Below are positions 26,519 through 28,425 of a stretch of 64,000 bases of DNA, in pieces. Origin of the DNA: Alterileibacterium massiliense. GTDB taxonomy: Bacteria > Bacillota > Clostridia > Peptostreptococcales > Anaerovoracaceae. The stretch lies in NCBI RefSeq assembly GCF_900104645.1, contig NZ_FNWE01000002.1, positions 263,289 to 327,288 of the forward strand, given 5' to 3'. The position numbers were made by a program, and so were the translations under genes. Each line of letters opens with the position of its first letter. Position 1 is the stretch's first letter. The notes beneath the pieces were generated by a model. The model was not told the origin of the DNA and did not search any database. It saw only the letters and a program-made list of their open reading frames with translations.

Positions 26519-26527
26519 TGATATAAT
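26519..26527 (+). promoter_or_regulatory. Extended -10 promoter of surface protein gene 2
   Basis: TGATATAAT, the same box as upstream of gene 1. Transcription from it would begin near 26534 and produce a leader of about 230 nt that includes the AGAC repeat and an intrinsic terminator. Confidence 0.5.
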
Positions 26528-26593
26528 TCTGAATAGAAGAAATTAAACTATTTGCAAAAATAACTTGACAAAAGAAAAGGCAAAAGCAAAATT

Positions 26594-26665
26594 ATGAGAC
26601 AGACAGACAGACAGACAGACAGACAGACAGACAGACAGACAGACAGACAGACAAGCGTTAAATAA
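26594..26665 (+). CDS. Candidate repeat-encoded leader peptide
   Basis: ATG at 26594 opens directly onto the AGAC tract and encodes 23 residues, M followed by repeated RQTD and ending SVK, with TAA at 26663-26665. The only ribosome-site candidate is AAAAGG about 14 bases upstream, so translation is uncertain. With 14 AGAC units it stops before the terminator at 26693. With 13 (or 10, 16) units the frame instead runs on through the terminator to a TAA at 26745-26747, about 20 bases from gene 2. With 15 units it stops at 26659-26661. Confidence 0.35.
   Translation: MRQTDRQTDRQTDRQTDRQTSVK
26597..26652 (+). repeat. (AGAC)14 tetranucleotide microsatellite
   Basis: Fourteen perfect AGAC units in the leader of surface protein gene 2. 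Tetranucleotide tracts of this length are typical contingency-locus repeats prone to slippage. Confidence 0.95.
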
Positions 26666-26692
26666 TAAGAACGCATCATTTAATATGTTATT

Positions 26693-26726
26693 AAATCTCC
26701 GAACCGATATGGTGCGGAGATTTTTT
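26693..26726 (+). terminator. Intrinsic terminator inside the leader of surface gene 2
   Basis: AAATCTCCG paired with CGGAGATTT. The loop itself pairs ACC with GGT around GATAT, and a T-run (TTTTTT) follows. It lies 40 bases before the start codon of gene 2 and after its likely promoter, so it would attenuate that gene. It is also the only terminator visible after gene 1. Confidence 0.8.
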
Positions 26727-26766
26727 GTGCAAAAATATTTTTATTAATTTATAGGGGTGAGGAATT

Positions 26767-28425
26767 ATGAAACTTAAAAGATTATCATTGCTTCTGCTGA
26801 TTTTCATTTTTGTAATATCAGTAGTACCATCAAGTGCATTACTTAGTGATAATGTGCATGTACATGAATTTGTAGCACAGCAAGCGTGGTTTACTAAACT
26901 TATTAAGTTTGACAATTTTAGGGGAAAGGACATAAGCGGAACTTTAAACTTTGAGCTTGTGTCTGATAAAACTGCAAATGCAAAATATTATGAGTATGGC
27001 AATAAACCAAATGATGAAGGAGATAACCAATTGGTACAAGTTGTACCAGGTGTTGTCAATCATGCGTATAAGACTTCCTTTAGTTCAAATGATTATGTGG
27101 ATAAAGAATTTGTCAAATTAGCATGGGACTCTGGAGACAGATGCGGAGATTCAACTGAACTAATGGACCATGCTTTTCTTCATGAATGGGGAAGAATAGT
27201 GTCATCAGACCATTGCTTTACCTGCAGGGTAGGCAAAATAAATCCTGAACAATTTGAAACTGCTATACCTTATATTTATGCAAATAAGGAAGAAGCAAAA
27301 ACGGCATATGAAAAACAGAAAGAATTGCTTAGAGAAGAAGATAAAGCCGGAAGAGGATTAAAATGGGACGGTGATGACGATACGGAAGATGTAATAGGAT
27401 GGAAAACAGGTATAGAATATCCAAGTAACCCGAACAATCCGCAGTACGATTTTCTCGGAGATTTTCAGGATAATTATGGTGGTAGACCGGAGTGTTTAAA
27501 TAGAAATGAAAAATTTAGGGATGGTACTTTTAAGGTAACACAAGAGTATACACTTTTTGCAAATCCTGCTGTAACATATTTTATGCCTCTAACAACTAGA
27601 CATATTGCATTAGATAAGACTTATGATAAAGATGGGAATATTAAATCCATAGAAGTACCTTTGCTCCCAGCTATTGAAGCTCACAATTTTAGCAAAAATC
27701 ACTGCAATGCCTTAAATGAAAAATATGGTGATGAAGCTTATGAGAAAAGTGAATATAAGATATTCAGATATAGATTAAAAGAAAAGCAAGCCGAGGGTAT
27801 AAATCTATCAATTGCAGACAAGGATATTATAGTCGATATTATTGGCTATGGTGATAATGCAACAACTATCTTTATGTTTAACAATGAGAAATCTGCTGAT
27901 GAATTTTATAAAAATTATTTTAGCAAAGAAATGAGCAGTTTATCAGGAATAAAAGAGAAAGAAGATGGAGTAGATATTAAAAAGAGCGATAAGGTTCAGC
28001 TTGTAAATCAGCTTGAAAATACAGAAGTACCTATCAAAAAGGTATGGAAAGATGAAAATAACAAATATGGTGATAGACCTGATAGCATAAGTATTAAACT
28101 ATATGCAAATGATAAAGATACAGGTAAGACACTTGTGTTAAATAAAGATAATAATTGGAACGATGTATTTACAAATCTTCCATTGAAGGAGAATGGAAAT
28201 ACAATTAAATACACGATAAAAGAAGAAAAAACTGCAAAATATAGAACGCAAATAACTGGAAATGCGAAAGATGGATTCGTTATAACAAATACCCATAAGA
28301 ATATTAAGCCTAAGAAAGATTCCCCTAAGACGGGAGATAGCGATATGGGATTGTTATTCATGGGAATAGCAGGCTTAGGCATAGCAGGGCTAGCAATAAG
28401 CATGAAAAAGAAAAAATCAAATTAG
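26767..28425 (+). CDS. Surface protein 2: novel exported domain plus Cna-B domain, sortase-type anchor
   Basis: 552 residues; GGGGTGAGG precedes the ATG. The signal peptide is MKLKRLSLLLLIFIFVISVV, cut near SSA-LL. Residues 35-410 are homologous to surface protein 1 (AQQAWFTKLIKFDNFRGKD, HEWGRIVSSDH, DGTFKVTQEY). About residues 418-515 form a Cna-B-type beta-sandwich (PIKKVWKDENNKYGDRPDS, IKYTIKEE, FVITNTHK), which in Gram-positive adhesins forms stalks and may carry an isopeptide bond. The C-terminus is SPKTGDSD, a hydrophobic helix and KKKKSN. Expression is predicted to depend on passage of the leader terminator at 26693-26726. Ligand unknown. Confidence 0.78.
   Translation: MKLKRLSLLLLIFIFVISVVPSSALLSDNVHVHEFVAQQAWFTKLIKFDNFRGKDISGTLNFELVSDKTANAKYYEYGNKPNDEGDNQLVQVVPGVVNHAYKTSFSSNDYVDKEFVKLAWDSGDRCGDSTELMDHAFLHEWGRIVSSDHCFTCRVGKINPEQFETAIPYIYANKEEAKTAYEKQKELLREEDKAGRGLKWDGDDDTEDVIGWKTGIEYPSNPNNPQYDFLGDFQDNYGGRPECLNRNEKFRDGTFKVTQEYTLFANPAVTYFMPLTTRHIALDKTYDKDGNIKSIEVPLLPAIEAHNFSKNHCNALNEKYGDEAYEKSEYKIFRYRLKEKQAEGINLSIADKDIIVDIIGYGDNATTIFMFNNEKSADEFYKNYFSKEMSSLSGIKEKEDGVDIKKSDKVQLVNQLENTEVPIKKVWKDENNKYGDRPDSISIKLYANDKDTGKTLVLNKDNNWNDVFTNLPLKENGNTIKYTIKEEKTAKYRTQITGNAKDGFVITNTHKNIKPKKDSPKTGDSDMGLLFMGIAGLGIAGLAISMKKKKSN

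Follow-up and report, generated by a model that had tools for sequence, protein, structure and literature searches.

A candidate phase-variable, ribosome-controlled attenuator with AGAC repeats upstream of a surface protein gene in Alterileibacterium massiliense

In the window, the 64,000-nucleotide stretch of the Alterileibacterium massiliense genome analysed here, an AGAC tetranucleotide array lies within a small leader ORF that precedes an intrinsic terminator and an LPXTG surface protein gene (gene 2). Repeat-length-dependent translational attenuation was the best-supported reading of this arrangement. We consider it moderately likely that the leader works as a Pil1-type attenuator, phase-variable and controlled by ribosomes, and that gain or loss of AGAC copies probably switches gene 2 on or off. 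The initial annotation had proposed attenuation, a reading that found partial support, although neither the promoter-like box P2 nor the Pil1 precedent figured in it. Comparison makes the reading likely here, through recurrence of the layout in the genome, the family and the class together with the Pil1 precedent, and our confidence was held at this level mainly because the leader ribosome site is poor (AAAAGG at 13 nt). The switch logic itself is already known and was proven for Pil1 of Streptococcus gallolyticus, going by the available part of PMC3894217. New as far as we have seen are the breadth of the layout, the variety of repeat units and the box beside the repeats; a search of titles and abstract starts in open-licence PMC returned no paper that deals with AGAC leaders or with a promoter-like box next to contingency repeats. 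Repeat-length-controlled attenuation was previously described in one Streptococcus species (PMC3894217, available part), and the layout is seen here across many families of another class. If the reading is true, this attenuator layout would be a general route to surface variation in these bacteria.

Table 1 Features of the candidate attenuator and its neighbouring genes, in window coordinates
Feature	Position	Strand	Basis
Surface gene 1, with LPXTG anchor; tandem paralogue of gene 2	25063..26481	+	49% identity to gene 2, residues 1-422
Candidate promoter P1 for leader RNA, extended -10 TGATATAAT, without clear -35	26519..26527	+	sequence
Promoter-like box P2, TTGACA-N16-CAAAAT, ends 4 nt 5′ of repeats	26565..26592	+	score 10/12
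Shine-Dalgarno-like AAAAGG, weak, 13 nt 5′ of leader ATG	26575..26580	+	sequence; SD match 4
Leader ORF, 23 aa at n = 14 as sequenced	26594..26665	+	frame check
AGAC simple sequence repeat, (AGAC)14	26597..26652	+	repeat scan
Small hairpin GCGTT/AACGC immediately 3′ of repeats	26655..26674	+	in minimum-energy and centroid structures
Intrinsic terminator T2, the putative attenuator; stem 26693-26723 plus T run	26693..26726	+	folding vs shuffles
Shine-Dalgarno of gene 2	26753..26761	+	sequence
Surface gene 2, candidate switched gene; signal-peptide-like start, Cna_B domain, LPXTG-type sortase anchor	26767..28425	+	

Sequence parts, reading frames and recurrence of the layout were established directly. 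The array is perfect over 26597-26653, comprising (AGAC)14 and one extra base, and was the sole perfect array of 4- to 6-mers in the window at a cut-off of at least 4 copies and at least 20 nt. AGAC translates as RQTD whichever frame is read, and the unit contains no stop codon. The leader ATG lies 3 nt 5′ of the array, and its product at 14 units is MRQTDRQTDRQTDRQTDRQTSVK. Frame checks bore out the ORF of the initial annotation, which started at 26594 and ran through (AGAC)14 to a stop at 26665, and agreed with its stop at 26661 for 15 units. With 13 units the frame crosses the terminator as claimed and ends past the stem at 26747; the 26745 given for that stop is its first base. The frames at 13, 14 and 15 units also agree with the claim that one repeat phase in three crosses the terminator. 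The leader stop lies 27 nt from the terminator stem at 14 units and 31 nt at 15 units. The poor leader ribosome site that had been conceded as a weak point is real, with an SD match of only 4 nt at a spacing of 13 nt, and all three leaders of the genome retain their ATG.

The terminator reported upstream of gene 2 also held up, since the region folded at -15.9 kcal/mol over 45 nt (z -4.6), a value equalled by 0 of 200 shuffles. A simple terminator scanner reported nothing at this position, probably because of a mismatch within the long hairpin. The start of gene 2 is at 26767, with AGGGGTGAG upstream. The 9-mer of P1 recurs 5′ of gene 1 at 24985-24993, and the window's own top P1 score was 9, under the cut of 10 used in the comparison below. 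The two P2 boxes are TTGACA at 26565 and CAAAAT at 26587, and the start site that they imply would be inside the repeats, in the first AGAC unit and 3′ of the leader ATG. A contig search with gene 2 found one Atopobiaceae locus, matching residues 408-524, which are the Cna_B part. No close relative carrying gene 2 was found for a comparison of repeat number, the genus consisting of one genome. Downstream, at 28834-30500, gene 2 is separated by an IS110-family element from a VWA/SHIRT surface gene (30415-34182) that looks truncated at its 5′ end, and the AGAC leader L129 of another genome precedes a gene with an N-terminal stretch like that of the VWA/SHIRT gene.

From these sequence features we infer which promoter is used, that the leader is translated, that antitermination occurs, that the repeats are unstable, and which phases are on and off. 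Transcription would begin 5′ of the leader, probably at P1, and a ribosome initiating at the ATG at 26594 would translate the array, with unit number modulo 3 fixing the position of the leader stop. With 14 or 15 units the stop would fall 27-31 nt before the stem, the terminator would form and gene 2 would be mostly off. At 13 or 16 units the ribosome would reach 26747 across the terminator and keep the stem open, and gene 2 would be on. Slipped-strand mispairing would alter the unit number and produce a mixed population. The window leader as sequenced (n = 14) is predicted to be in the off phase, as is n = 15, with n = 13 and n = 16 predicted on. The 27 nt distance at n = 14 is borderline relative to the 28 nt given in the Pil1 paper.

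According to the available part of PMC3894217, the S. gallolyticus pili Pil1 and Pil3 are switched by GCAGA repeats in a leader peptide, and translating ribosomes open the terminator. Out-of-frame changes in GCAGA number there lengthen the leader peptide and the ribosome then opens the terminator; results matching this prediction were obtained when the leader start was lost, when chloramphenicol was added and when the terminator was deleted, and expression was mostly low if the stop lay at least 28 nt 5′ of the terminator (PMC3894217, same part). As far as that text goes, Pil1/Pil3 and the window have in common short repeats within a small leader ORF, an intrinsic terminator that precedes an LPXTG surface gene or operon, and a repeat number that positions the leader stop relative to the terminator. 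The two differ in repeat unit (AGAC in the window, GCAGA in Pil1) and in the number of on phases out of three (one predicted in the window, two in Pil1); the window leader also has a weak ribosome site and belongs to another lineage. In the window the array abuts a promoter-like box. Neisseria nadA likewise has a promoter-near repeat controlling a surface protein, but in the available part of PMC2791445 that repeat sits between repressor operators and alters their spacing, whereas the window repeat is 3′ of the promoter boxes. Coding tetranucleotide repeats of the Haemophilus type share frame shifting with the window, but those and the hsdS repeats sit in the gene itself, as far as the available parts of PMC2651432 and PMC7394358 describe them, and the window repeat sits in a separate leader ORF.

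In the window's own genome, which comprises 1.45 Mb on 2 contigs, the window leader as query found three further places, of which two were leaders (L003/L109 and L004) and one was coding (L002/L108). Both leaders retain TTGACA ... CARAAT-TATG-AGACAGACA, and in all three leaders of the genome the start codon stands 3 nt before the array. L003/L109 contains (AGAC)11, and the L004 array is degenerate (AGACAGACATACAGACAGACAGA, at L004 1535-1557). Their terminators have ATCTCC/GGAGAT arms, and the downstream genes have a signal-peptide-like start and an LPXTG-like tail, with an anchor model match for L004 only. The ORFs 5′ of both leaders, which from their translations we take to be glutamate-dehydrogenase-like and coaBC-like, are divergently transcribed, so the terminator at these loci belongs to the leader and cannot serve the upstream gene. 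The ribosome site of L109 is no better than the window's (SD match 0), and only L004 among the three has a decently placed SD (AAGGA). L004 has a decayed repeat yet retains its leader ATG and terminator, and is perhaps a locked form of the switch.

With one comparison genome per species, a sampling that revealed no variation in repeat number, AGAC arrays were present in 31 of 349 genomes and 18 of 92 genera of the family, and in 18 of 391 sampled genomes from 13 families of the class (three genomes from the window's own family included). The leader set comprised 36 AGAC arrays outside long ORFs, or 43 arrays including other units, not all of which show every part. The usual order was promoter P1, SD and start codon, array, terminator T2, SD and gene. 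P1-like scores of at least 10 occurred in 31/43 leaders (13.7% in shuffles). An in-frame start with an SD match of at least 4, no more than 66 nt from the array, was found in 25/36 AGAC leaders (27% in shuffles), and an SD match of at least 5 in only 11/36 (8% in shuffles). The likeliest start codon was 20-37 nt 5′ of the array in 25/34 leaders. A T2 located 20-150 nt 3′ of the array, with a folding energy of -12 kcal/mol or better, was found in 34/34 leaders compared with 17% in shuffles, a count that omits the 9 of 43 leaders affected by contig ends or Ns. Early-stop and late-stop frames were both available in 33/34 leaders against about 76% expected from shuffles; the p value of about 0.001 is optimistic because several loci look orthologous and are not independent. 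Judged by the likeliest start codon, 17/34 leaders were late (on-type) and 17/34 early, an assignment in which automatic stem starts were placed too early for L004, L109 and L151 and L004 was counted late, yet has its true stop about 19 nt before the stem.

Downstream proteins fit a crude signal-peptide pattern in 24 of 31 cases and did not in 7, the gene being unreadable for 12 of the 43 leaders; two exceptions without a secreted look are presumably a TetR-like and a response-regulator-like protein. Arrays of GCAGA rotations, the Pil1 unit, occurred at L208, L219 (outside the 43) and L204, where the contig ends within the array. The exact string TTATGAGACAGACA was rejected as a family marker, as it was present in 3 of 148 genomes and its two single matches outside the window genome were both in long open frames and probably coding. 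At seven loci (L110, L112, L116, L135, L149, L164 and L166) the array is directly followed by an anti-repeat resembling GTCTGTC or CTGTCT and by a T run, which can combine with the last repeat units into a putative small extra terminator. One genome has an AGAC array that ends one ORF (L119) and, about 1 kb on, a GCAGA array at the start codon of another (L221); by the look of their translations we take both ORFs to encode sugar-pathway enzymes.

A promoter-like box, TTGACA-N16-18-nAnnnT with a score of at least 9/12, lay 1-9 nt 5′ of the array at 42 of the 47 distinct AGAC arrays from family and class for which 60 nt of upstream sequence was available. The family subset had it at 29/34 AGAC arrays versus 9.7% in shuffles. 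The box was found at leader arrays and also inside hsdS and methyltransferase genes. In the table of all units, for which both strands were scanned and the better kept, 46/64 rows scored at least 9; at least one of these is a chance match (L126 minus strand), and the 18 misses include opposite strands of counted arrays and arrays whose upstream sequence is past the contig end, as it truly is for L209. Spacing was 17 in 30 of the 46 boxes, and their -10 had A as second base in 46/46 and T as last base in 44, with T as first base in only 15, unlike an ordinary -10. Scores of at least 9 also occurred at CAAG, CATA, TACA, AAGC, AACG, ATCA and CAGAG arrays, and AGAC-specific recognition is unlikely since these seven other units reach the cut; lower scores were found for L208 (GAGCA array; 8) and for L205, L206 and L210 (7 each).

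This box in fixed register is the best argument for the main rival, in which P2 is a real promoter, RNA begins in the first AGAC unit, repeat number acts on promoter escape, on the structure of the 5′ end or on RNA stability, and the ATG is irrelevant. An effect of this kind is reportedly known for the tetranucleotide repeats preceding uspA2 of Moraxella. Were transcripts to start from P2, they would lack the leader ATG, which would count against the attenuator. The window box scores 10/12, its register is shared by 42/47 arrays, and a leader ribosome site becomes unnecessary, but RNA made from P2 would have to pass the terminator, present in 34/34 comparable leaders, without a ribosome. The scarcity of T at the first -10 position (15/46) also argues against a promoter, as do the P1 and SD with start codon that many leaders have upstream of the array, and inside hsdS and methyltransferase ORFs the box cannot be the promoter of its own gene. 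We judge this explanation improbable. The converse proposal, in which the leader ATG would be nothing more than a by-product of P2, is weakened by the many class leaders with an SD and start codon upstream of the array.

The hsdS-type genes with AGAC arrays, from genomes of the class, were L117, L122, L123, L150, L153, L158, L163 and L168, with an AACG array in L207. Their arrays follow the first conserved YEYYRDxLLTF segment and precede an apparent second recognition domain, and these genes look like frame-switchable specificity subunits. At LLTF-type sites, 7/8 with an AGAC array matched both boxes versus 3/42 of the array-less ones (hand-counted table, Fisher test, one AACG-array site excluded from the 43). 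The box is therefore not accounted for by protein sequence alone, and the idea that TTGACA in hsdS is a mere consequence of the conserved LLT residues was weakened accordingly. A TTGACA-like hexamer alone (at least 5/6) was found at 8/8 sites with an array and 15/42 without. If the box were a promoter, transcription would begin in the first repeat unit and the leader start codon would not be transcribed; within hsdS such RNA would be useless for expressing the gene, and we therefore regard the box as a property of the repeats. More speculatively, and with little probability assigned to it, the contingency repeats of the class might be tied to a dedicated box (TTGACA-N17-nAnAAT) that makes them unstable, a cis-acting, tunable mutation-rate element serving several units, where open complexes, abortive unit-length RNAs or R-loops would promote slippage. 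The fixed register raises the testable question of whether a local element sets the mutation rate of contingency repeats.

An attenuator whose terminator is opened by a protein or small RNA, with the repeats setting only spacing or RNA stability, would fit the poor leader ribosome sites of the window and L109. Ribosome opening, however, has a direct precedent in the available part of PMC3894217, and the early/late frame pattern in 33/34 leaders also counts against this alternative. A riboswitch or other known leader was rejected, as Rfam gave only one chance-level microRNA match (E 0.76, below the gathering score) over window positions 24900-28900 and no family in six related loci. Overall we hold opening by another factor to be unlikely. 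Least likely of all is that repeats and ORF are idle, the terminator serves only to end transcripts of gene 1, and gene 2 is transcribed from an unrecognised promoter in 26726-26767: gene 1 does lie upstream on the same strand, no other terminator was seen in 26481-26693 and 26726-26767 is AT-rich, but no consensus promoter was found there on the + strand, the terminators of L003 and L004 can act only on the leader, and the layout recurs in family and class.

Beside the leader switch favoured here, the window genome also has a repeat of the coding type. L002/L108 carries (AGAC)13 close to the C-terminus of an EcoRI-type adenine methyltransferase gene (L108 2663-3982; contig 1, about 781.2-782.5 kb). 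After the array, all three frames close with similar tails of a YxRIxIxRK-like type. With the sequenced repeat number the tail is module A, and the other two frames give a short tail and module B; from this layout the repeat number may select among three C-termini instead of on and off.
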